A DNA stretch of 46,168 nt, from NCBI GenBank assembly GCA_945869195.1, contig CAMBNV010000011.1:1-46168 (forward strand). Reading direction: 5' to 3'. A program made the position numbers and the translations under genes. Within the stretch, counting starts at the first letter, position 1. Every line of letters begins with the position of its first letter. Positions 53 through 36,680 of the stretch are shown here, piece after piece. The notes under the pieces are model-generated. The model saw nothing but the letters and a program-made list of their open reading frames with translations. It was not told where the DNA came from and searched no databases. This DNA comes from Gemmatimonas phototrophica (GTDB lineage Bacteria; Gemmatimonadota; Gemmatimonadetes; Gemmatimonadales; Gemmatimonadaceae).

Positions 53-3049
53 TCAGCGCCCAGCGCTGAGATCGTTCCAGTGCAGGATCGAGTTGAAGCC
101 GAGGAAGAAGGTGCCGTGCGTCTGCCACCGCCAGAACGGGCGGATGCCGAACATCACGACATGGCCGGCCCCGAGTGGCGCATCGACCACCTGGGCCCGG
201 TTCGCGAGGGTCTCGCCGGCGGAGAGTGATCCAGAGAGGAGCATGTCCGCCGCGCTCGCAGGGAAGCTCATGACCACGCGCGGCCTTGTGTTCGCGACGG
301 CTGCAGCGCGGGTACCTGCGGCGGCAGGGGGACCCGCCGCCGCAGCCGCAGCACCACCACCACCAGCCGCCGCTCCAGCAGCACCCGGGGCACCACCAGC
401 ACGCGCACCACCGGCACCACCAGGACCACGTGCGCCACCAGCAGCTGCGCCCCGCGGCATGTCATCGACCGCGTTCCAATCCCACGGCGAGAGCGTGAGT
501 GGATTGGCCATCGGTGTGGTGTTCTGCCCCTGCGGGGCGCCAGCACCACCACCACCACCACCCCCACCACCGCCACCGAAGCCGCCGGCTCCACCGGCGG
601 CCACGTTCATCACCGGCGCCTGATTGAAGTACACCGGCACCTGTGCCGAATAGCCGTACGCGATCGGGCTGGTCCGGTCCGTGACGATACCGCGCATCAC
701 CGAGCCGCGCGCGAAGAGTGCGGCCGGCTCCTCGATCGTGATCCCGGTCGTGATCTTGTATTCAGGGAAGATGGTGACTGTCGAGCCCTCGGTGATCAGC
801 GTTCCACCGGCCTCGACGAACTTCTTGAGCTCCATCAGCCCGTCGAAGCCCATGCCGCCGCGAATATCAGCCGACTCGTCGATCCCGCCGAGGTTCGGCG
901 TGTCGGCGGTCCGCTGGTACGGGAGTGGCGTCGTACCGGTCATGGCGATGCCGTTCACCTGCGATTCGGCGGTGCCACCCACGTGCGGGAAGATGATCAC
1001 GTCGTACTTGGCGCGAAGATTTCCGTCGCGGAGCTTCTGGTCGGCGAAATAGGTGTAGGGTACGCCGTACGTATCGAGCGCGGCGCGTACCCACCCCTCG
1101 TCCTGCGTGCGCTGCCAGCTGTGCACGTACCCGATGCGCGGTAGGTCGAGGTCGTGCTGTTTGACGGCCGGGGCGGTAGCCATCGCCACGCCCGTCAGGC
1201 CGAGCTCGGTGAGCACGGTGCCCAGTCGGGCGGCGGCCGCGTTCGCGATGATGAACGATCCCGCCCGGAACTTAAGCCCCGCGACTTCGAAGTCCGCCTC
1301 GGCGGCCGTCATCGGCACGTCCTTCAGGCGGACCCGCATCGTCATAAGGTTGTTGTCGGTCGTGTGATCGACCACGACCACGGGGCCGCTGCCTTCGATG
1401 CCGCCCGCCGCGCGTGCAGGTGCGGCCAGCCTGGTCATTTTTTGGCCAAAGACCATCGAGTCGGTGATCGTGTTGATCACGACGTTGCGCATGAGCTGGA
1501 AGGTCCAGCCAGTGTCGTCGTACGGGCGCGGGTTGGCGACCGGGTAGTTCTGCACCGCGAAGTACATCTCGGCCATCGTGCGGTACGGCTGATCGCCCCG
1601 CACCAGGTAGTCGCCCTTCTGCACCGTGACGCTGCCGGCCGTGAAGGTCGCATCGGCCAGATGAATCTCGAGGCCCTGCCGGAAGAGCTCATTCACCGCA
1701 GCGACGGCGTCAGCACGGCGACGCTGCCCGGCGGGGATGACCCAGGCGTTGGTCGGGCCGGCGCGGCCACGATCGACCGAGCGCTTGTTCTTAAGCCAGT
1801 AGTTCTCGAGGTACATCTTGCGGTTCTTCGCAAAGTGGTCGAGGGTGAAGAGCACCCCCGATTCACTGATGTTCACCGAGTTCCGAGGGCCCCACTTGAT
1901 CAGCGGGAGCGGCGGGTTCGGCCGGAACCACTCGCGGCTCGTCGTCTGGGCGCCAACGCGTAGGCTGTCGTTGTTGTCGGGTCCGTAGCTCTGCACTTCG
2001 TAAAAGCGCCCGATCGCGTTGCGGGTGTGCGCGGCGAAGAAGAGGTAGTTGGGCGTCCATCCGTCGTAGAAGCCATAAGTCCAGACCCCGGGCACGCCGC
2101 GCTTGGTCATCTCCATGACGTCGGCCTGCGCCATCGTCCACCACTCGGTCACGGTGATCGGGTCGATCGCTTCGTTGTACGGACCGGTCCCGGTGGAGGT
2201 GTAGAGGTACGACACCGACTCGTGCAGGTCGTGCATGACCTGCGGCGTCCAGTTGAGGAACTCGCGGTTGATGTTGCGCGTGAGCGCGAGGAACTGTCCC
2301 ATGCCGTCGCGGTTGTTGTCGTGCGCGACGTACTTGCCCCAGTACATGAGCGGCAGCCGAGCCTCGCCGGTGGGGCGCTTCTTGTTGAAATAGTAGGTGT
2401 CGACCTGACGTTCACGGCCATCCACCTCGAGCACCGGCGTGATGAAGGTGATCACGTTCGAGCGGATGTTGTTGTAGAACGCGTTCTCGGTCACCGCGAG
2501 GCGGTACGCGAGCTCCATGAGCATCTCGGGGCCGCCCGTCTCGCCGGAGTGCAATCCGCTGGTGAGCCAGTAGATCGGCTTGGCGGTGTTGAGCAGCTGC
2601 TGCGCGCGCGCCGGAGAGGTTTTCCGCGAGTCGGTCAGTTCGTTGAGGTACCCCTTGAACTTGTCGAGATCGCGAATCGTCGCCGCGTCGGCGACCGCGA
2701 GCACGTACATATCGCGGCCCTCTTCGGACTGACCGATCTTCCAGACCTTTACGCGGTCGGAGGCAGCGTCGAGCGCCTCATAGTAGCGATGGATGTCCTT
2801 CGCATACGTCAGCTCCCCCGGGGTGCCGACGATACGCCCGAGAAACTTGAGCGGGGTGGGCACGGTGGACGACGCCGGCATGTCGGCCACGAGCTCCGTG
2901 GAGATGCGCGGGTCGCGCAGATGCTCCTTGATCTTGGCCGTGTACTCGCGGTCGATGGCCTGGCCCTGGGCGGCCAGCGGCCGGGCGGACGACGCGACGC
3001 AGAGCAGCGCGGCAACAGGAAGAACGCGGAAGAGCATGGATCGCATCAT
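53..3049 (-). CDS. Secreted M14-family zinc carboxypeptidase
   Basis: 998 residues. Predicted secreted metallopeptidase that would trim C-terminal residues from peptides in the periplasm or outside the cell. A signal peptide with cleavage near A-A-Q (residues 25-30) is followed by the M14 fold; the zinc motif H-S-G-E is at residues 167-170 and an H-D-L-H-E-S segment lies about 100 residues on. The last 400 residues include a segment resembling a glutamine-amidotransferase-like fold, then a long Gly/Ala tract before the C-terminus. The start is supported by GGAG eight bases upstream. The protein is far longer than classical M14 enzymes (about 300-400 residues), but long forms are known in soil bacteria. 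Family assignment is firm; the substrate is unknown. Confidence 0.88.
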   Translation of the reverse strand: MMRSMLFRVLPVAALLCVASSARPLAAQGQAIDREYTAKIKEHLRDPRISTELVADMPASSTVPTPLKFLGRIVGTPGELTYAKDIHRYYEALDAASDRVKVWKIGQSEEGRDMYVLAVADAATIRDLDKFKGYLNELTDSRKTSPARAQQLLNTAKPIYWLTSGLHSGETGGPEMLMELAYRLAVTENAFYNNIRSNVITFITPVLEVDGRERQVDTYYFNKKRPTGEARLPLMYWGKYVAHDNNRDGMGQFLALTRNINREFLNWTPQVMHDLHESVSYLYTSTGTGPYNEAIDPITVTEWWTMAQADVMEMTKRGVPGVWTYGFYDGWTPNYLFFAAHTRNAIGRFYEVQSYGPDNNDSLRVGAQTTSREWFRPNPPLPLIKWGPRNSVNISESGVLFTLDHFAKNRKMYLENYWLKNKRSVDRGRAGPTNAWVIPAGQRRRADAVAAVNELFRQGLEIHLADATFTAGSVTVQKGDYLVRGDQPYRTMAEMYFAVQNYPVANPRPYDDTGWTFQLMRNVVINTITDSMVFGQKMTRLAAPARAAGGIEGSGPVVVVDHTTDNNLMTMRVRLKDVPMTAAEADFEVAGLKFRAGSFIIANAAAARLGTVLTELGLTGVAMATAPAVKQHDLDLPRIGYVHSWQRTQDEGWVRAALDTYGVPYTYFADQKLRDGNLRAKYDVIIFPHVGGTAESQVNGIAMTGTTPLPYQRTADTPNLGGIDESADIRGGMGFDGLMELKKFVEAGGTLITEGSTVTIFPEYKITTGITIEEPAALFARGSVMRGIVTDRTSPIAYGYSAQVPVYFNQAPVMNVAAGGAGGFGGGGGGGGGGGAGAPQGQNTTPMANPLTLSPWDWNAVDDMPRGAAAGGARGPGGAGGARAGGAPGAAGAAAGGGGAAAAAAGPPAAAGTRAAAVANTRPRVVMSFPASAADMLLSGSLSAGETLANRAQVVDAPLGAGHVVMFGIRPFWRWQTHGTFFLGFNSILHWNDLSAGR
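300..610 (-). repeat. Low-complexity Gly/Ala coding tract
   Basis: Within the M14 gene, GGN and GCN codons pile up (plus strand: CCA/CCG/CCC and GCA/GCC runs), encoding a glycine run of eleven and then alternating Ala/Gly/Pro stretches. The frame stays open throughout, so it is translated as a flexible linker. Such triplet-rich DNA is prone to slippage and to assembly error. Confidence 0.8.
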
Positions 3050-3304
3050 GCGACGGACTCCGATGGGTGGGAACGAGGCCTAAATGGGCCTGCAGTCGAT
3101 ACGCGACTGGCACGTGGGGCGTTGGGCGTTGGCGCGCGGCGCTGCGCCGGTCCGGGAGGGGTCAGGGTCACCCGCTCCGCTGCGACCGATTCGATGCGGG
3201 TACGCGAGCAAAATACCGGGAAGAATCGGTCCTGCGCATGAGGGGCGGGTAGAGGTGGCGGGGACCGCGATATTCGCACGCCGCGGCACCGCGCGGCAAG
3301 GCGC

Positions 3305-4615
3305 TCAGGCGCGTAACCGTTCCTGCATCCGCTGCATGTCGCCGCCGGTGGTCCGCGCCGCCGCAAAGAGCGCCGCCGCCGTACTCAGGAGTGCGACCGG
3401 AATTACGTACATGGCCGCATGCAGACCAGCGGCCCTGAACGGTTCTGAGAGCGTCGTGGCGCCCGCCGCGTGCATGGCGGTCTGCGCCATGCGATCGCTG
3501 AGCCAGCCGACGACCACTGGCCCAAAGCTGGCCCCCAACACATACATCGCGAAGAAATACAACGCGACGGCGGCGCCGCGCAGTCGGGGCTCGACGACGT
3601 CCTGGATGGCGCTGTATACCGAGGCGTAGTAGATGTACGTGGTGACCGTCATGACGCTGATGAGCACGGCGTAAAGGGCGACGCCACCCTTCGGTTGTTC
3701 GAGCGCGAGATACGCGCAGGGTGCTGCGATCAAAAAGCCGCCCGCCGCGAGGAGCAATCGGCCGTTCGGTCGCCACTCGCGCATCCGATCGCCCAGCACC
3801 CCGCCGATCAAGAGTCCCACGAGGCCGACAAGCCCGAGCGAGACCGCGGAGACCTGTCCCGCCTCACGCAGGCCGAGCCCGTGGTACCGCATCAGGAACG
3901 CCGTGTTGAACTGGCTCGTTGCGTAGGCGTGAAAGTTGAAGGTGGCGCCGGAGAGCACGATCCACCGCAGCGTACGAATGCTGGCGAGGTCACGGTAGGG
4001 TGTCTTGGTCACCACCGACTGGGTTTCGGACGGACCCTCGGTGGCCCCGCGCCGCGGCTCCTTCAGGCGAAGCGCAACCGCGGCCATCAGGAGACCGGGC
4101 ACGCAGGCCACGAAGTACACCGCCCGCCATCCCCACGCCTCGGCAATCGCACCGGCCAGCATATACGCGCTGAAGATCCCGAGAGGCAGACCCGCCATGA
4201 AGAGGGCCAGGGCGCGCGACCGATGCGCGGGCGGAAAGTAGTCGCCGATCAGTGACTGGCCGGCCGGCGCATAGACCGCTTCGCCAAGTCCAACCCCAAT
4301 CCGCGTCACCAGCAGGGAGGTAAAGTTCCACGCCAGGCCCGATGCCGCGGTGAGCAGGCTCCAGAACGCCACGCCCGCTGCGGCAAGTCGCGTTCTATTG
4401 TGCGTGTCGGCGAGCCGACCCAGCGGCAATCCCACGATGGCGTACGCGAGTGTGAAGATCGTGGCGGTCCAGCCGATCTGCTGATCGCTGAGTCCGAACT
4501 CGATCCGCACCGGTTCGACGAGCGCCGCGGCGAGCATCCGGTCGAAGAAGTTCAGCAGATTGATGGTGAACAGCACCCAGAGGGCAACTCGGGCGTCCCG
4601 CGGTGACACGGTCAT
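3305..4615 (-). CDS. MFS transporter (spinster-like)
   Basis: 436 residues, about twelve hydrophobic helices. The N-terminal half carries the MFS signature around L-P-L-G-R-L-A-D-T-H-N-R after helix 2, and N-F-F-D-R-M in helix 1, as in the spinster-like and hexuronate-type sugar or organic-anion transporters. A second, weaker loop motif (G-G-V-L-G-D-R-M-R) follows helix 8. An upstream in-frame ATG exists at 4633, but the start at 4615 has GGAG eight bases ahead and gives a normal N-terminus. No neighbour reveals the substrate. Confidence 0.85.
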   Translation of the reverse strand: MTVSPRDARVALWVLFTINLLNFFDRMLAAALVEPVRIEFGLSDQQIGWTATIFTLAYAIVGLPLGRLADTHNRTRLAAAGVAFWSLLTAASGLAWNFTSLLVTRIGVGLGEAVYAPAGQSLIGDYFPPAHRSRALALFMAGLPLGIFSAYMLAGAIAEAWGWRAVYFVACVPGLLMAAVALRLKEPRRGATEGPSETQSVVTKTPYRDLASIRTLRWIVLSGATFNFHAYATSQFNTAFLMRYHGLGLREAGQVSAVSLGLVGLVGLLIGGVLGDRMREWRPNGRLLLAAGGFLIAAPCAYLALEQPKGGVALYAVLISVMTVTTYIYYASVYSAIQDVVEPRLRGAAVALYFFAMYVLGASFGPVVVGWLSDRMAQTAMHAAGATTLSEPFRAAGLHAAMYVIPVALLSTAAALFAAARTTGGDMQRMQERLRA

Positions 4616-8225: not shown

Positions 8226-9806
8226 TCAGCGCGCGATGAGTCGCCCCGCGGCCGGCGGCGAAATCACCTTCGCGCGCCGTACATGCTCGAGCACCAACTC
8301 GCTGAGGACTGAATCGCGGGCGACGACCGGCGCCCCCACGAAGGCGGCGTACCCGTCTCCCCCTTCCGCGAGGAAGCTGTTCGTCGTCACCCGATACCGC
8401 CGCTCCGGCTCGAGTGGCGCCCCGCCGATCTCCACGCGCAGCACCCGCGAGCCCTCCGGACGCGAGCGGTCCCATTCGGCGCGGAGTCCGGAGACCTGCA
8501 CCATCCCCGCCTCGAGCGAGCACCCTTGTTCGAGCACGGCGAGGATCGCGCCGCCGCGCATGTCGAGCGTCACCGAGTCGTTGAGGAACGGCAGTGCGTT
8601 CAGCACATGGCCGCGGTCGAGCGGGCCCTCGGGGAGGTCGGCGCGCAGGCCCCCGGCATTAGTGAAGGCGACGTCGGCCCGCGCCTTCTCGCGCATGACA
8701 TCGGTGCAAAACGATCCCAGCGACGACTCGGCGTGGTATTGCCTGACGAAGCGCTGCGCCGCGCGCCCGACCGGAGGCCCGATCTGGTCGGCGACACGAG
8801 CGCGGTACCGCGCCACACGCGCCACGATGCTCGGATGCGGCACGATCTCGTCGCTCCACACCTTGAGGAGCGTGACGTCATGGCCCACCACCTTGCCACC
8901 ATCGAGCGAGAGCCGCACGCGTCCGAGTCGCGTGCCGTAGCCGTATGTTTGCGTGATGATTGTTCCCGTATCGGGATGCACCAACGGCGCGTCGAGCCCG
9001 TGGTGTGAGTGCGCCGCGATGTAGAGGTCGATCCCCGGGACCGCGCCACAGAACGCGATATCCTCGTCCATCGCGCGCTGCACCAAAGGCTCGTGCTCAG
9101 CGTCGCTCTGCATGGGGCCCGGGAGGCCCTGATGCCCCAGCACCACGATCACATCCACCTGATCCCGGAGCACACGGAGGCTGGCACGCACCTCCGCGAC
9201 CGGGTCGGTGAACTCGAGCTCAACCACCTTGGAAGGCATGATCGTTCGGGTGGCGGCCTTGCTCCCCATCACCCCGATCACGCCGAGTCGCACACCATCG
9301 CGCTCGAGGATTGAATAGGGGCGCGTGAACCGGATTCCAGAGCCCTTGTAGCGGACGTTGCAGCAGATCACCGGGAACGGGACGCGCGCCATTCCGCGTT
9401 CGAGTACCTGCCAGCCGTAGTCGAACTCGTGATTCCCCACACTCATCGCGTCGTAGCGCATGAGCATCATCATCTCCCAGAGCGCCTCACCCTCGGTGAG
9501 CTTGGAGAGTGTGCCGGTGAACATGTCACCCGAGTCGAGGAGGAAGGCGGTGCCCGCGGCCGCCCGTTCGCGCTCCACGAGTGTGGCGAGCTGGGCCGCG
9601 CCCCCAATCCGTGGCGCGCCCGGCAGCCAGTAGGCCGGGGTGGGATCGAAGGCGCTGTGGAAGTCGTTCGTATAGAGGATGGTGACGTCGCGTGCGATCG
9701 CGCTCTGGCGGCCGTTGCGTCCGGAGCGCTCGCTCAACGGGCCGCGCCCCGCGATCGGAACCGCCGCAAGCATCTTGGTGAACTCGAGTCTTGAAATCGA
9801 TGTCAT
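8226..9806 (-). CDS. UshA-type 5'-nucleotidase / metallophosphoesterase
   Basis: 526 residues. Probably hydrolyses nucleotides or related phosphoesters outside the cytoplasm. The calcineurin-like domain carries all metal-ligand blocks in order: T-N-D-F-H (D-x-H), D-S-G-D-M-F-T-G, V-G-N-H-E-F-D-Y-G, L-G-H-Q-G and A-A-H-S-H-H-G. The C-terminal 5'-nucleotidase domain follows, with F-T-N-A-G-G-L-R and F-L-N-D-S-V. The N-terminus is weakly hydrophobic with L-E-F-T-K before it, so secretion (possibly Tat-like) is plausible but not clear. Monocistronic by spacing. Compare the degenerate relative at 27423-30326. Confidence 0.9.
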   Translation of the reverse strand: MTSISRLEFTKMLAAVPIAGRGPLSERSGRNGRQSAIARDVTILYTNDFHSAFDPTPAYWLPGAPRIGGAAQLATLVERERAAAGTAFLLDSGDMFTGTLSKLTEGEALWEMMMLMRYDAMSVGNHEFDYGWQVLERGMARVPFPVICCNVRYKGSGIRFTRPYSILERDGVRLGVIGVMGSKAATRTIMPSKVVELEFTDPVAEVRASLRVLRDQVDVIVVLGHQGLPGPMQSDAEHEPLVQRAMDEDIAFCGAVPGIDLYIAAHSHHGLDAPLVHPDTGTIITQTYGYGTRLGRVRLSLDGGKVVGHDVTLLKVWSDEIVPHPSIVARVARYRARVADQIGPPVGRAAQRFVRQYHAESSLGSFCTDVMREKARADVAFTNAGGLRADLPEGPLDRGHVLNALPFLNDSVTLDMRGGAILAVLEQGCSLEAGMVQVSGLRAEWDRSRPEGSRVLRVEIGGAPLEPERRYRVTTNSFLAEGGDGYAAFVGAPVVARDSVLSELVLEHVRRAKVISPPAAGRLIAR

Positions 9807-26296: not shown

Positions 26297-27193
26297 TCAA
26301 CGCGTTGCGCCACCCACTCCAAACCCTGCCGTCCCGGTGCGCGGATCGAATGTCGCACCGGCCGGCAGCAGATGCATCCGCATCCCCGATGCGCCGAGGA
26401 CCTGCCCGGTTGGCGTCATCGCCGCCGACCGCGCGTCGTAGATCACGACCGTGCTCGCGCCGCGCACGCTCCACGTACCGTCGGGATGCACCACGAGCGC
26501 CGTGGATTCGTCGATACCCGCGGCAAGATGCGGGGCGCGCTCGAGCACGAGGCTGATCAGCCGGTTGTGCCGCTTCCGCCGCAGGAAATGCTGGTCGATG
26601 ATCACGTTGTCGATCAGCCCGAAGCCCGCGGTCGTGATGGTGTTGTCGCGCGCGATTGTGACCCACGAGAGCGTACTATCTGGGCGCGTCCCGCCTGGCC
26701 TGCGCTCGTCACCTGTGAGCATCACCGCCGACATCACCGCCGCGCCGGCCGAGGTCCCACCGATGACGGCTCCGGCGGCGTAGCGCGCATGGATCGCACG
26801 CTCGGTGGCCGTGCCGCGAATGACGTCCGCTAGGCGGACCTGATCGCCACCACCGAACCAGACGCCGGTCGCGCCGTCGAGCAATCGGGCGACCGAGTCG
26901 GTCATCGCTTGCTCGCGCGTGATCCATACGTTCTGCGCCTGCGCGCCGAGTCCACGGAGCTGCTCAGCCTTCTCCTCACCGCCGGTCAGACCGGAGGCAC
27001 TCGCCATCGCGAACACGATGATGCGTGCCTTGCCACGACCGCCCGCGAGCTCGACGAACTCTTGCACTAGTGCCGCGGGCTGTGGTCCGCCGCCGACGAT
27101 GTACAGGGTGCCGCGGCCCGCGGCCGATTGACCGGCGAGGGGGGCCGCGGCGAGTGTGGCGGCGAGCAGCAGGGTTTTGAGGAGTCTTTTCAT
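26297..27193 (-). CDS. Cyanophycinase-like S51-family peptidase, secreted
   Basis: 298 residues with a signal peptide (cleavage near L-A-G-Q). S51-type serine peptidase fold: I-V-G-G-G-P-Q at the start, F-G-G-G-D-Q at about 115, nucleophile Ser in G-T-S-A-G-A at about 147-152, and D-Q-H-F-L-R-R-K-R-H-N-R-L, a cyanophycinase hallmark. The family splits the isopeptide bonds of multi-L-arginyl-poly-L-aspartate or related substrates. A secreted form would act on external polymer. No cyanophycin synthetase is in the window. Confidence 0.88.
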   Translation of the reverse strand: MKRLLKTLLLAATLAAAPLAGQSAAGRGTLYIVGGGPQPAALVQEFVELAGGRGKARIIVFAMASASGLTGGEEKAEQLRGLGAQAQNVWITREQAMTDSVARLLDGATGVWFGGGDQVRLADVIRGTATERAIHARYAAGAVIGGTSAGAAVMSAVMLTGDERRPGGTRPDSTLSWVTIARDNTITTAGFGLIDNVIIDQHFLRRKRHNRLISLVLERAPHLAAGIDESTALVVHPDGTWSVRGASTVVIYDARSAAMTPTGQVLGASGMRMHLLPAGATFDPRTGTAGFGVGGATR

Positions 27194-27422: not shown

Positions 27423-30326
27423 CTACAGCAAGGGCTGATAGCGCGGCTTCCAGAGGCGATCGTACGTGATGCCGACCCGCAGTTGACTCGCCATTCCCGG
27501 CATCAGGCTTCCAGGCACTTTTCCCTTGAAGAACATCAGGTCAGCGGACACGGCCAGCGACAGTTCATCCACGAGCGGGACCACGATCTCGTGGATCTGG
27601 TTGTAGCGGAGCGCGAGATTGGCGTCCGTGTCGAGAGGGGCAGGAAAGAAGTAGGTGAGATCGTTCACCATCCGGTAGCGCACGCGTCCAAATTCCCGAC
27701 GCCCGGCCCCGCCGCCGATCTGTCGTTCGTAGTCGCCACGCGCCTGCACGCCGACCTGCGGATTGGGGCGTCCGTAGTCGTTCTCCACCACCGCCGCGAG
27801 CTCCGTGCGTGGCCAGCGTTCAGTAGGGGTGAGCAGGAGTCCCGACATCCCACGCAACGAGAGCTGGCGAGCATTCCGTAGTCCGCTTGCGGTGTTCCGC
27901 GTGGGACTGAACTCACTATCGAACAGGGCGCGCACAAAAGGTTGGAGGCGGCGCCCTCTGTTCGCGCTGGAAGGGCGTAGCGTCAGGTCGATCCGTATGT
28001 CGTCCGTGGTCTCGACGACGCGAGCATTTCCACCCGCGGTGAGATGCTGCTCCGCGAAGGCGAGCCCGATACCGAGGTCCGTTGCCACCCGCATGCGGTC
28101 CTGCGACACGACAAATCGTCCGCTTGCCCCAGCTACCCACGCGTTGGCCCCGACGATGCGGCTCTCGGGGACATTTTCATATCCCGTGCGCGTCGAGACG
28201 GAGTTGGTGGAGACCCAGAGCGTGGGGCGCTGAAACATGAATGAGAAGAGCGGTTCGTATCGGGAATCGGGGGCGAGCATCGCCGCGATGGAGTCGACCT
28301 GCGCGGTCCCACGAGCGACGCCGCGGACCCGACGTAACTCAGCAAGGGCCCAGGGCTTGATGGCCAATGGCTCACCGCCGCGGACCGTCGCCTCAAGCAC
28401 ACCTCCGGCACCGATCTCAAAACGACGTCGGACCCGTCGTGCGCGCGTGAAGAATCGCGAACGGGCGCCTTCGTAGAGCACATCGCTCGTTGCCACTCTA
28501 TAAAACGTGGCACCGTCAATCGGGCGGCCATTGATGGATCCGGCGGCGAAGTCGATGCCGCTCGTCGCAAGCTCGCCGCGTCTATCGTCGCGCAACAGGG
28601 CCAGCAGGTCGCTGCCCGGCAGATCCAGTATGACGATCTCGTCCTCGGTCCATAGCCACTGACCGATTTCGTTCTCGTGCAGCTTGCCGATGAGCGGAGG
28701 AAACTGGTCGAGCCGGCGAATCACCGACGCCTCGGCGTTGCCGCGCTGGCGCAGCAACCGTGCGAGGAATGCCTCCCACATCGGCTTGGAAACCCGCCCT
28801 TGGGCAGTGACGGCGTCAAAATCCCGCAGCGCAGGACGGCGTTCGACGAGATCCACGAAGGCCGGAAGCATCAGCTCCCCCCGGGGCTGCGGATCCAAGC
28901 TGACCAAGCCTCTGAGTCGCCGTACGAATCCCGTATCGCTCGGCGTATCGTCGGTGACCATCGACAGGCGGTGCTCGACGGCCTTGAGGTAAGGCTGTCC
29001 TCCCCCCGCGGAGGATTGGAACTCCAGGTCGAGTCGGCCGACGCCTATGCCGTTGGCCGCGCTGCGTGCCACGATCGCCGGTGAGCTCGGTCGCACGAAT
29101 GGGCGGGCGGGAAGCTCCACTCGCACCCGACGATCTTCCGGAGCCGACGCGGCCGGAAGGTCGGCGACAATCGCGTCGATGCCGCGGACTTCCTCGGCCA
29201 CGAGGGCGTTCTCTGGTGCCGACATATTCGAGAGCACGACGATGGCGGTCGCGCCTGCGGCTTGCAGCGCAGCAACCTCGCGCCGGGCCGCGCTCACTGG
29301 CGACTCGAATCTGAATCCGGCAAGCGCGCTACGCGGTAGGCGATCCCGCAGCTCGCCGCTCACGAGCCCCAGGAAGCCAAGACGTACGCCTGCCTGCTCC
29401 ACGATCACGCGTGCCTTGAAGAGCGAGGAATCAGCCGTGGCGACATTCGCCGCCAGCAGGCCGACTTCCGGAAACTCACGCGCGAGAGCGGCAAGGCCGT
29501 CAGCACCCAGACCCAACTCGAACTCATAGGGCACGAGCAAGGAGTATCCCAGTTCGCGGAGCGCGGTGAAATCGAGGCGAGCCCGGCTTGGGCGCTCGAG
29601 CCCGACATCCGCGTTCTGGTGACCGAGGTCCACGGTGATGACGGCGACGGACTGTGCCGAGCCATTGGAGCGAAGTCGCGCTAGCAAGGTGGCCCGCGGG
29701 CCGAGTTCACCGAGATTGAGCGGGAGTTCGAATAGCCGCGAATCGAGGAGATCGAGTCGGTTCATCTCCCCGGTCGTGAACCCAGCGGTATCGCGGGGCC
29801 AAACGGCGCCGGGTCGCTCGATGATGATGGCGCGGTCACCCCGAGCCGTGCGCAGGCGCGAGGCGCGCACGGTCGTGCGCACCAAGTCTCCGAAGTCGCG
29901 TTGGCGCCGTGGATTTCGATCGATCATCGCCAGGAGATCGGGCTGCGGACGCCAAGGATCTTGGATCAGGAGCACGTTAGCCGAGATCATCGCAGGCAGC
30001 TCCTCAAGTGCTTCAGCCTGCTCGCGCCCCTCGAGGATCTCCGCGAGTTCGTCGCCCAGCGGCTCCTCCGACGGGAGGAAGATCACGATGCCCGGTGCCC
30101 GCCAAGCCAGATGCGAGACGAGCTTGAACGGAACTGACTCGGCGACGGCAACTTCGGCGAGCAGTTCATGCTCGTCCTGCGCGCGCTGGGCCCCCATCGC
30201 GCCGAGCGAGCGGGCTGTGTACACGACCGAGACACGGGTCGGCTGCGACTGCGCGCCAAGCTCCGGGGCGGACTGAGCCAGGAGACAAAGGACCAGGCCA
30301 AGCCGGATTAGGCAGCGAGTTACCAT
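27423..30326 (-). CDS. Degenerate nucleotidase fused to outer-membrane barrel
   Basis: 967 residues with a signal peptide (cleavage near L-G-A-Q). Residues about 200-640 follow the UshA layout: calcineurin-like part, then a 5'-nucleotidase C-domain-like part (N-G-R-P-I-D-G-A-T-F-Y-R-V-A). Yet the metal motifs are gone: the N-H-E-F-D-Y-G position reads Y-E-F-E-L-G and the G-H-S-H position V-A-D-L-P. Residues about 690-967 are beta-rich with aromatic-capped strands like an outer-membrane barrel. I read it as a catalytically dead nucleotidase domain on a barrel, perhaps a binding or uptake protein. Ends immediately at element copy B. Confidence 0.7.
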   Translation of the reverse strand: MVTRCLIRLGLVLCLLAQSAPELGAQSQPTRVSVVYTARSLGAMGAQRAQDEHELLAEVAVAESVPFKLVSHLAWRAPGIVIFLPSEEPLGDELAEILEGREQAEALEELPAMISANVLLIQDPWRPQPDLLAMIDRNPRRQRDFGDLVRTTVRASRLRTARGDRAIIIERPGAVWPRDTAGFTTGEMNRLDLLDSRLFELPLNLGELGPRATLLARLRSNGSAQSVAVITVDLGHQNADVGLERPSRARLDFTALRELGYSLLVPYEFELGLGADGLAALAREFPEVGLLAANVATADSSLFKARVIVEQAGVRLGFLGLVSGELRDRLPRSALAGFRFESPVSAARREVAALQAAGATAIVVLSNMSAPENALVAEEVRGIDAIVADLPAASAPEDRRVRVELPARPFVRPSSPAIVARSAANGIGVGRLDLEFQSSAGGGQPYLKAVEHRLSMVTDDTPSDTGFVRRLRGLVSLDPQPRGELMLPAFVDLVERRPALRDFDAVTAQGRVSKPMWEAFLARLLRQRGNAEASVIRRLDQFPPLIGKLHENEIGQWLWTEDEIVILDLPGSDLLALLRDDRRGELATSGIDFAAGSINGRPIDGATFYRVATSDVLYEGARSRFFTRARRVRRRFEIGAGGVLEATVRGGEPLAIKPWALAELRRVRGVARGTAQVDSIAAMLAPDSRYEPLFSFMFQRPTLWVSTNSVSTRTGYENVPESRIVGANAWVAGASGRFVVSQDRMRVATDLGIGLAFAEQHLTAGGNARVVETTDDIRIDLTLRPSSANRGRRLQPFVRALFDSEFSPTRNTASGLRNARQLSLRGMSGLLLTPTERWPRTELAAVVENDYGRPNPQVGVQARGDYERQIGGGAGRREFGRVRYRMVNDLTYFFPAPLDTDANLALRYNQIHEIVVPLVDELSLAVSADLMFFKGKVPGSLMPGMASQLRVGITYDRLWKPRYQPLL

Positions 30327-30741: not shown

Positions 30742-31263
30742 ATGCGTTCAGTTCTTCGTCATGCGTTTGCGGTTGCGGCCCTTGTTGGTGCGGTGGCGAT
30801 CTCTGCCCAGGCCCAGATGGGGGGGCTAAAGGTTGAAGAAATCCGTATCGACCTCGCGAGCCTCAAGATCACGAACGGCACGTTGCTCGGCGCCGGGATT
30901 CCGGGCTCGGTGGCGCTCGGCATCTATCTGAACGACAAGATCGCACTCGAGCCGACCATGGGCTTCTCTTATACGAAGGCCGATGGCGCGACCGATGCCG
31001 CCACGGGGTTGAACCTCGGCGTCTTCGCGCCGTTCTACTTCGCCGGTGACCGCGGCCATAGCGGCCTCTTCGTCGCCCCCGGCGTCATGATTAGCAAGGT
31101 GACCGACGTGGACGCCGCGATTGACTTCGGCGCCGATGTGGGCTTCAAGCGCAAGATGAGCGACAAGGTCTCCTGGCGTGCCGCGGCCCAGCTGCGCGAC
31201 GGCGACAGCTTCACCGACGCCTCGATCAGCGGCGTGTTCGGCCTCAGCGTCTTCTGGCGCTAA
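30742..31263 (+). CDS. Small outer-membrane beta-barrel-like protein
   Basis: 173 residues. Signal peptide ends at A-Q-A-Q. The mature protein has alternating hydrophobic strands (L-F-V-A-P-G-V-M-I, V-S-W-R-A-A-A-Q-L-R-D) and ends F-G-L-S-V-F-W-R, typical of a small eight-strand outer-membrane barrel. Ribosome site GGAGG four bases from the ATG. It stands alone and is followed by a strong terminator. Family name unknown. Confidence 0.75.
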   Translation: MRSVLRHAFAVAALVGAVAISAQAQMGGLKVEEIRIDLASLKITNGTLLGAGIPGSVALGIYLNDKIALEPTMGFSYTKADGATDAATGLNLGVFAPFYFAGDRGHSGLFVAPGVMISKVTDVDAAIDFGADVGFKRKMSDKVSWRAAAQLRDGDSFTDASISGVFGLSVFWR

Positions 31264-34839: not shown

Positions 34840-36528
34840 TTACGGTCTCGCCAACGCATCCCGCAGGATGAGGTACGCGGGCTTGGGGCCGAAGAGTTGA
34901 TCGAATGGCAAGGCGCGTCCAAAGCCCGAGAACGTTCCCGGAATCCACGAGTACTTGTCGGTGAAGCCCCAGGTGGTCAGCGCTTTGCAGCGAGGTTGCG
35001 CCAGGCACGCGTCAATCGTAGTCCCGTAGGCGCTGCCTTGGACCGCGAGGTTGTCGGTGCCGTCCGCCAATCGCACGTCGATCTCGGTGTAGCGGATATC
35101 GAGGCCGGCTGCCGCGAAGCGCGCCAGATTTGCCGTGAGCTGCGCCGGACTCGGCGCGGGTAACACGAAGTGGCCCTGCAACCCAACGCCGTCGATCGGA
35201 ACACCGGCCGCTTTGAGTCGGGTGGCCAGCGCAAACAACGAATCGGATTTCCGATTCACCGTTTCCACGCTGTAGTCGCTCAGGAAGAGGCGTGCGTTGG
35301 GATCGCTGCGGCGCGCCCACACGAAGGCCGAGTCGATGATATCCGCACCGGCCACCTCGATCCAGAAGCTGGGGCGCAGCCCGGAGCCGTCGTCGGCAAT
35401 CAACTCGTTGGCGACGTCCCAGCTGGTCGTCTTGCCGGCATATCGTGCCACTACCGTTTCAATGTGCGACTTGAGCGACGACAGCAGGAACGCGCGCGTG
35501 GGAGCCCCGGCCGTCAGCCAGGCGGGCTGCTGACTGTGCCACAGAAGCACATGTCCGTACACCTTCATGTTGTTGGCCACCGCGAAACCGACGATCGTAT
35601 CGGCATTGGTGAACGCGTACGTCGTGGCGGCGGGATGAATGGATCCGAACTTCATCGCATTCTCGGTCGTGACCGAATTGAATTCTTCGGCGAGCACGCG
35701 CCGGTACGTCGAATCGGCCCGCAGTGCGTCAGCCGATACCGCGGCGCCGATTTCAAAGCTGCGACGCTGCGCATGACCACGCAGTGATGGTGGGGGCGCG
35801 AACACGGCGAGCGTACCGGTGCCGGTGACTCGTCCCGCGGCGGTCCGGTTCACGCGGTCTGGCGGCGCCACGGCGAATGTCTGCCACGTGGTATCGGTGA
35901 GACGGCCAATACGCAATTGCGTCTCGACCACATCGGCCGCGAGTGCTGTCGGATAGCGCAGTCTCACCGATGCGGGAGTGGCAAACGTGATCGCTGGTGT
36001 GATCGCCACGGCGGTGCCTGCCAACAGTCGCGCGTTCGGCGTGGGCGCCGCAACCGGGCGCACCACGAACGCGGTGGGTGCCGTGAGTGCGCCGGCCGGT
36101 ATCTCCAGTCGAAGCTGGCCGTTCAACGCGGTCACGGTACCGCCACTCATCGCAACAAACCCGCCCTCATTCACCGTGAGGAGTGCGGTGGCGGACACGG
36201 CGCCGCTAGTTGCCGAGATGGTAGTGGTGCCCTGCGTGATCGCCGTGGCGCGTCCATCACTCGCGACCGTGGCTACACTCACCGACGACGAGCTCCAGAT
36301 GAATGCCGCGCCGGCGATGGCGGTACCGGCGGCATCGCGGGCGACGGCGGCGAGTAGCTGCGATTCACCGGGCACCAGGGAGCCGGTGGTGGGCGACACG
36401 GTCACCACCGCTACCGTTGGCGGGAGTGGCGGCAGCGGGGGAGAGGTGGGCGTGGTAGGTGCTGCCTCGGAACCACCACAGCCGACCACGAACAGAGCGA
36501 GTGCCAACAGCGCGACGCGACGCGGCAT
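34840..36528 (-). CDS. GH10 endo-xylanase lipoprotein with Ig-like domain
   Basis: 562 residues. Lipobox V-V-G-C, then a Pro/Thr linker, a bacterial Ig-like (Big_2) domain (T-V-S-P-T-T-G-S-L-V-P-G-E-S-Q-L to about 110), a second beta domain, and the GH10 barrel from about residue 250. GH10 landmarks: T-T-E-N-A-M-K-F, G-H-V-L-L-W-H-S-Q, catalytic acid Glu in W-D-V-A-N-E-L, nucleophile Glu in Y-T-E-I-D-V. Would cleave xylan at the cell surface. The start at 36528 opens the lipoprotein signal; longer frames carry no better leader. Dispersed element C lies just upstream. Confidence 0.92.
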   Translation of the reverse strand: MPRRVALLALALFVVGCGGSEAAPTTPTSPPLPPLPPTVAVVTVSPTTGSLVPGESQLLAAVARDAAGTAIAGAAFIWSSSSVSVATVASDGRATAITQGTTTISATSGAVSATALLTVNEGGFVAMSGGTVTALNGQLRLEIPAGALTAPTAFVVRPVAAPTPNARLLAGTAVAITPAITFATPASVRLRYPTALAADVVETQLRIGRLTDTTWQTFAVAPPDRVNRTAAGRVTGTGTLAVFAPPPSLRGHAQRRSFEIGAAVSADALRADSTYRRVLAEEFNSVTTENAMKFGSIHPAATTYAFTNADTIVGFAVANNMKVYGHVLLWHSQQPAWLTAGAPTRAFLLSSLKSHIETVVARYAGKTTSWDVANELIADDGSGLRPSFWIEVAGADIIDSAFVWARRSDPNARLFLSDYSVETVNRKSDSLFALATRLKAAGVPIDGVGLQGHFVLPAPSPAQLTANLARFAAAGLDIRYTEIDVRLADGTDNLAVQGSAYGTTIDACLAQPRCKALTTWGFTDKYSWIPGTFSGFGRALPFDQLFGPKPAYLILRDALARP

Positions 36529-36587
36529 GACGGAGACAAAGGTGAGGTGACGACCCCGGGAAAACATGAGATCGTGGTGTCCGATAT

Positions 36588-36680
36588 CCGATAGGAGTTT
36601 CAATCGGGCTCGGGAGTATGGCGCGCCGCTTCACGCGGCGCCACCAGCGCGCCCGGGGCCCGGTGGGGTCTGTCGCCCGT
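36588..36680 (-). repeat. Dispersed element with hairpin (copy C)
   Basis: Reverse-orientation copy, about 93 bp: minus-strand order ACGGGCGACAGA, CCCCAC, the same GGTGGCGCCGCGTGAAGCGG hairpin region, TCCCGA and the 20-base core (36607-36588). Differs from copy B by a few substitutions and a 9-bp gap. Lies upstream of the xylanase and at the edge of the AT-rich island. Confidence 0.7.

Follow-up and report, generated by a model that had tools for sequence, protein, structure and literature searches.

A degenerate 5'-nucleotidase module fused to a twelve-stranded outer-membrane barrel is conserved in Gemmatimonadota

What does a protein do when it keeps the fold of a 5'-nucleotidase, lacks the residues that make such an enzyme work, and carries an outer-membrane barrel at its end? 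The question is raised by an open reading frame (ORF) of 967 amino acids (27423–30326, minus strand) in a stretch of 46,168 nucleotides from Gemmatimonas phototrophica, hereafter the window. Its strand and length match those given in a first-pass annotation, in which the protein had been described as a pseudoenzyme on a barrel. We compared the ORF with sequence families, structures and related genomes, and all parts of it discussed below lie on the minus strand.

A nucleotidase fold without its metal site

As a single sequence, the ORF had no match to any Pfam family. NCBIfam models gave weak matches (SoxB, the UshA-like PCGU family, NadN and UshA), mostly over residues 209–438. The E value for the SoxB model was 1e-9, and the score for TIGR04486 (SoxB) was 36.8 bits, against a curated cut-off of 550 bits. 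The top PDB sequence match was the Thermus 5'-nucleotidase 2z1a (E 1e-5), while a profile of ten orthologue sequences found SoxB 2wdc (E 1.5e-9) and 2z1a (E 2.4e-9). PF02872 matched six of the ten family members, with a best E value of 4.5e-4. When the orthologue alignment was compared with intact nucleotidases by hhalign, residues 203–667 were aligned (probability 99.7, E 1.2e-25), and therefore both nucleotidase domains were covered. The AF2 model built from the ten sequences had an overall pLDDT of 61, and of 81–92 in the dead metallophosphatase core (about residues 250–370). The top 50 Foldseek matches of this model were all SoxB, UshA, CD73, NadN or other 5'-nucleotidases, and VIA-align gave Z scores of 26–27 against the best SoxB, CD73 and UshA structures.

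The protein is a homologue in the 5'-nucleotidase (UshA/CD73) superfamily, and its two-domain fold spans residues 30–667. The retention of a UshA-like fold, proposed earlier from the sequence, was borne out by both hhalign and the predicted structure. The dead metallophosphatase domain consists of strand 1 (residues 30–42, 30201–30239, located by VIA-align) and a remainder after an interruption (residues 203–460, 28947–29720), followed by a degenerate 5_nucleotid_C-like domain (residues 461–667, 28326–28946; hhalign, PF02872). The ORF shares this architecture (Metallophos plus 5_nucleotid_C) with UshA, CD73 and 2z1a; it differs from them in that all metal ligands are replaced, the nucleoside-contact positions are changed, and an insertion of about 160 residues and a barrel are present. 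Among the NCBIfam models and in the PDB profile search, the dead domain matched the SoxB thiosulfohydrolase best; unlike SoxB, the ORF has lost the metal site and possesses a barrel.

An intact 5'-nucleotidase paralogue in the window (8226–9806, minus strand; PF02872 E 2e-38, PF00149 E 2e-11, PDB 3ivd E 4e-84), correctly recognized as such in the first-pass annotation, served for comparison. Its first motif was aligned with the ORF without gaps (VTILYTNDFHS versus VSVVYTARSLG; by eye, in agreement with VIA-align), and the other motifs were aligned by hhalign. On the ungapped reading and in the structure, N-D-F-H is replaced by A-R-S-L at residues 38–41. G-D is replaced by G-H/Q at residues 235–236, N-H-E-F-D-Y-G aligns to E-F-E-L-G-L-G at residues 268–274, and G-H-Q is replaced by S-N-M/L at residues 366–368. 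A-H-S-H stands opposite D-L-P-A (residues 389–392), and therefore its two His ligands correspond to L/M390 and A/V/G/L392. None of the seven dimetal ligands (D, H, D, N, H, H, H/Q) is kept in any orthologue. Their replacements (R39, L41, H/Q236, E268, N367, L/M390 and A/V/G/L392) are near-identical across orthologues, and the catalytic His next to the Asn is replaced by F269. R39, L41, E268 and N367 are invariant across the eight sequences that reach these positions, and it is therefore the dead form that has been conserved. The profile alignment thus confirmed the earlier claim that the metal motifs are replaced, but the counterpart of N-H-E-F-D-Y-G lies one register away from the Y-E-F-E-L-G given before. 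No complete metal site was found in the sequence.

The nucleoside contacts of CD73 were also followed into the second domain. We take R395 to be one of them, and the placement of the CD73 numbers on the motifs is likewise our assumption. By hhalign, N390, R395, F417, F500 and D506 align to R/P537, F542, T/S560, V616 and R622, with a possible local shift of about one residue (e.g., W559 instead of T560). In CD73, N390, F417, F500 and D506 touch the ligand (PMC12586806). The contacts of an active 5'-nucleotidase are changed at these aligned positions, which are locally uncertain by about one residue. Because the contact positions are changed and the metals that hold the phosphate are gone, capture of nucleotides at the old site is disfavoured. 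The first-pass annotation had suggested a surface role for the dead domain, in which it would capture nucleotides or phosphate esters. Although the ancestral fold is retained, the metal ligands and nucleoside-contact positions have all been altered, and we consider this suggestion very improbable. We infer that the protein probably does not hydrolyse nucleotides.

The insertion and the barrel

The phosphatase domain is interrupted after strand 1 by about 160 residues, a feature absent from the first-pass annotation. Because the VIA-align alignments start at model residue 25–30, opposite the first strand of UshA and CD73, V-S-V-V-Y-T (residues 32–37) was read as strand 1 of the fold. In the model, residues 43–202 (29721–30200), between this strand and the G-E-L-G-P-R-A-T helix, are read as an insertion. 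Conservation is highest here of all parts: mean pairwise identity was 0.67, compared with 0.58–0.60 elsewhere, and in each of the three close pairs available for the comparison, its Ka/Ks was lower than that of the dead phosphatase part. Its invariant polar residues include E52, H53, E54 and H72. No match was found among known families, enzymes included, and a PDB sequence search returned chance-level matches only. When the insertion alone was searched in 298 genomes of the phylum, it was seen only inside the same fusion.

At the N-terminus, residues 1–25 (30252–30326) form a signal peptide, assigned by eye from a hydrophobic helix (residues 5–16) followed by A-Q, with a presumed cleavage site. 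At the other end, a linker modelled with low confidence (residues 668–694, 28245–28325) contains a short conserved helix (677–683), itself predicted by AF2 at low confidence. It leads to a 12-stranded barrel (residues 695–955, 27462–28244; model, VIA-align and hydropathy) and a conserved C-terminal tail, D-R-x-W-K-P-R-Y-Q-P (residues 956–967, 27426–27461). Twelve strands were present in both models, including that of residues 690–967 folded alone (pLDDT 77, pTM 0.74). Foldseek matched the barrel model to outer-membrane barrels with modest scores (best E 1e-4), and 12-stranded outer-membrane barrels ranked top in VIA-align with Z scores of 12–15 (Tsx 15.2, PcoB 15.1, NalP 14.9, NanC 14.6, and OMPLA, EstA and KdgM 14.1 each). 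The alternation of hydropathy between the inner and outer faces of the strands was matched by only 2 of 2000 shuffles. Thus, the attached barrel-like region of about 280 residues, and with it the fusion of a pseudoenzyme to an outer-membrane barrel, held up. In addition, Ka/Ks was lower in the barrel than in the second domain in all four close pairs, and many charged strand residues are invariant, including several assigned to the inner face by hydropathy. The barrel had no match to the autotransporter family PF03797, no POTRA domain was matched in Pfam, and the PDB sequence search of the barrel returned chance-level matches only. Searched alone in 200 genomes of the phylum, the barrel was seen only in the same fusion, except for one fragment match (E 5e-4, 45-aa frame).

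Conservation and genomic surroundings

A scan of genome contigs with the single sequence gave no match, while nine loci were recovered by a scan based on the alignment. Eight other Gemmatimonadota genomes contain the fusion, as six uninterrupted full-length copies and two copies cut by contig ends. Full-length orthologues (50–60% identity) occur in six genomes of the same genus, one of them split at a contig end, and in one of another genus of the same family; in a further record, L025, the copy is cut by a contig end. The named records are Gemmatimonadota metagenome-assembled genomes. No relatives were found in the viral contigs and plasmids searched. The gene is missing from several genomes of the same genus. 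In the genus, the gene mostly occurs in small genomes (1.8–2.3 Mb, with one at 3.5 Mb); noncarriers mostly reach 3 Mb or more, and this split may mark one subclade.

Ka/Ks values of 0.04–0.18 in close pairs indicate purifying selection, and all parts of the protein are under such selection over the long term. Because the fusion recurs in eight other genomes under purifying selection, it is neither decaying nor an artefact of assembly. The loss of every catalytic motif would be expected of a pseudogene, but uninterrupted copies exist in six other genomes with Ka/Ks well below 1, and two further genomes contain contig-cut copies. Both explanations were rejected, with a residual probability close to nil.

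In the window, the gene is flanked by a same-strand cyanophycinase and a divergent 173-aa ORF. The cyanophycinase (26297–27193, minus strand), directly downstream, has an apparent signal peptide and scores above the cut-off of TIGR02069 (153.6 bits). In L021, a cyanophycin synthetase and a cyanophycinase lie about 3.4–7 kb from the orthologue; a cyanophycinase is near the gene only in the window and, more distantly, in L021. The 173-aa ORF (30742–31263, plus strand) has a signal peptide, is beta-rich, has no family match and resembles a small outer-membrane protein; it was not found at the orthologue loci. No neighbour or partner gene is conserved across these loci, where the neighbours are unrelated enzymes. 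A search for SoxZ, as a link to the Sox system, gave no match, and the control likewise matched nowhere. Elsewhere in the window, a glycoside hydrolase family 10 protein with a Big_2 domain (34840–36603, minus strand) is likely a secreted xylanase-type enzyme.

The genome also carries one intact single and one intact tandem 5'-nucleotidase. Two 5_nucleotid_C domains occur in a 1091-aa open frame (genome G000, contig C1, about 1535–4327, minus strand; L066, L096, L097), a tandem nucleotidase of a type common among relatives. Outside the fusion family, the top-scoring nucleotidase-like protein was a 356-aa open frame (L034, G195:C255; E 3e-17); its motifs, G-E-W-D-F and G-H-G-G, hint at a separate, partly degenerate metallophosphatase.

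Possible function and sidedness

Because the metal residues are lost and yet selection keeps the protein intact, a binding or scaffolding role is probable rather than an enzymatic one. We favour, with a probability of roughly 0.5, a noncatalytic binding or scaffold protein that is anchored in the outer membrane, whose dead module carries the insertion in an autotransporter-like layout. The signal peptide would direct export of the pseudo-nucleotidase, and the C-terminal 12-stranded barrel would anchor it in the outer membrane. The dead two-domain module would be retained as a rigid scaffold presenting the insertion domain, which may bind a partner such as a protein, a glycan or a small ligand. 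Several points stand against this reading. H/Q236, E268 and N367 might in principle hold a metal, the invariant His, Glu and Asp of the insertion could be catalytic, and the neighbourhood gives no conserved gene and no partner. An enzyme whose active site had arisen anew within the insertion (E52, H53, E54 and H72, among others), or one with an altered metal site at H/Q236, E268 and N367, would account for the insertion being the most conserved part and for its invariant polar residues. But the insertion matches no known enzyme family, a metal Asp has given way to R39 and either His or Gln stands at position 236, and such an enzyme is unlikely.

On which side of the membrane would the dead module lie? 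No cysteine occurs after residue 29 in any of the ten orthologue sequences, and the absence of cysteine from the mature protein is a frequent, though not a specific, trait of translocated passengers. The conserved tail past the last strand differs from what we take to be a typical autotransporter end. In type Va autotransporters, an N-terminal passenger is brought to the outside by a C-terminal 12-stranded barrel; in EstA, this passenger is a globular enzyme (PMC6555100). The ORF likewise has a C-terminal 12-stranded barrel after an N-terminal passenger-like module. It shares with EstA the order of signal peptide, N-terminal module and barrel (Z 14.1), but it has no PF03797 match, its passenger fold differs and secretion is only putative here. 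PlpD (type Vd, Omp85 superfamily), formerly considered an autotransporter, also has an enzyme-fold module ahead of a C-terminal barrel and holds it in the periplasm; its barrel has 16 strands and a POTRA domain (PMC11116518), whereas that of the ORF has 12 strands and no POTRA match, outside type Vd/Omp85. The order of parts and the cysteine-free mature protein make autotransporter-like surface display appear a slightly better fit than a periplasmic location, while three points lean against it: PF03797 is not matched, the C-terminal tail is conserved, and PlpD sets a precedent for a periplasmic module. A periplasmic module that docks on or plugs the 12-stranded channel, making a gated or receptor-coupled outer-membrane channel, is possible though doubtful. 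It draws on the channels among the top structural matches of the barrel (Tsx, PcoB, NanC and KdgM), on the invariant charged strand residues, several of them facing inward, and on PlpD. However, autotransporter barrels (NalP, EstA) score equally, the neighbourhood holds no hint of a substrate or partner, and the lack of cysteines, unspecific as it is, also speaks for translocation.

The fusion is real and conserved, and it is apparently undescribed: known parts plus one insertion without a known family. In a limited literature search, no dead nucleotidase on a barrel was found, and the terms for a metallophosphoesterase–Omp85 fusion are absent from the text of PMC4104836. Returning to the favoured binding or scaffold protein, we tentatively suggest that it may represent a lineage-specific outer-membrane class, in which an autotransporter-like 12-stranded barrel displays a dead 5'-nucleotidase scaffold with a new inserted recognition domain. 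The family shows clearly that a catalytic fold can stay under selection after total loss of its active site, here tied to the outer membrane, in Gemmatimonadota, a phylum with few cultured members. Its insertion, for which no relatives are known, forms a well-delimited unit that lends itself to testing.
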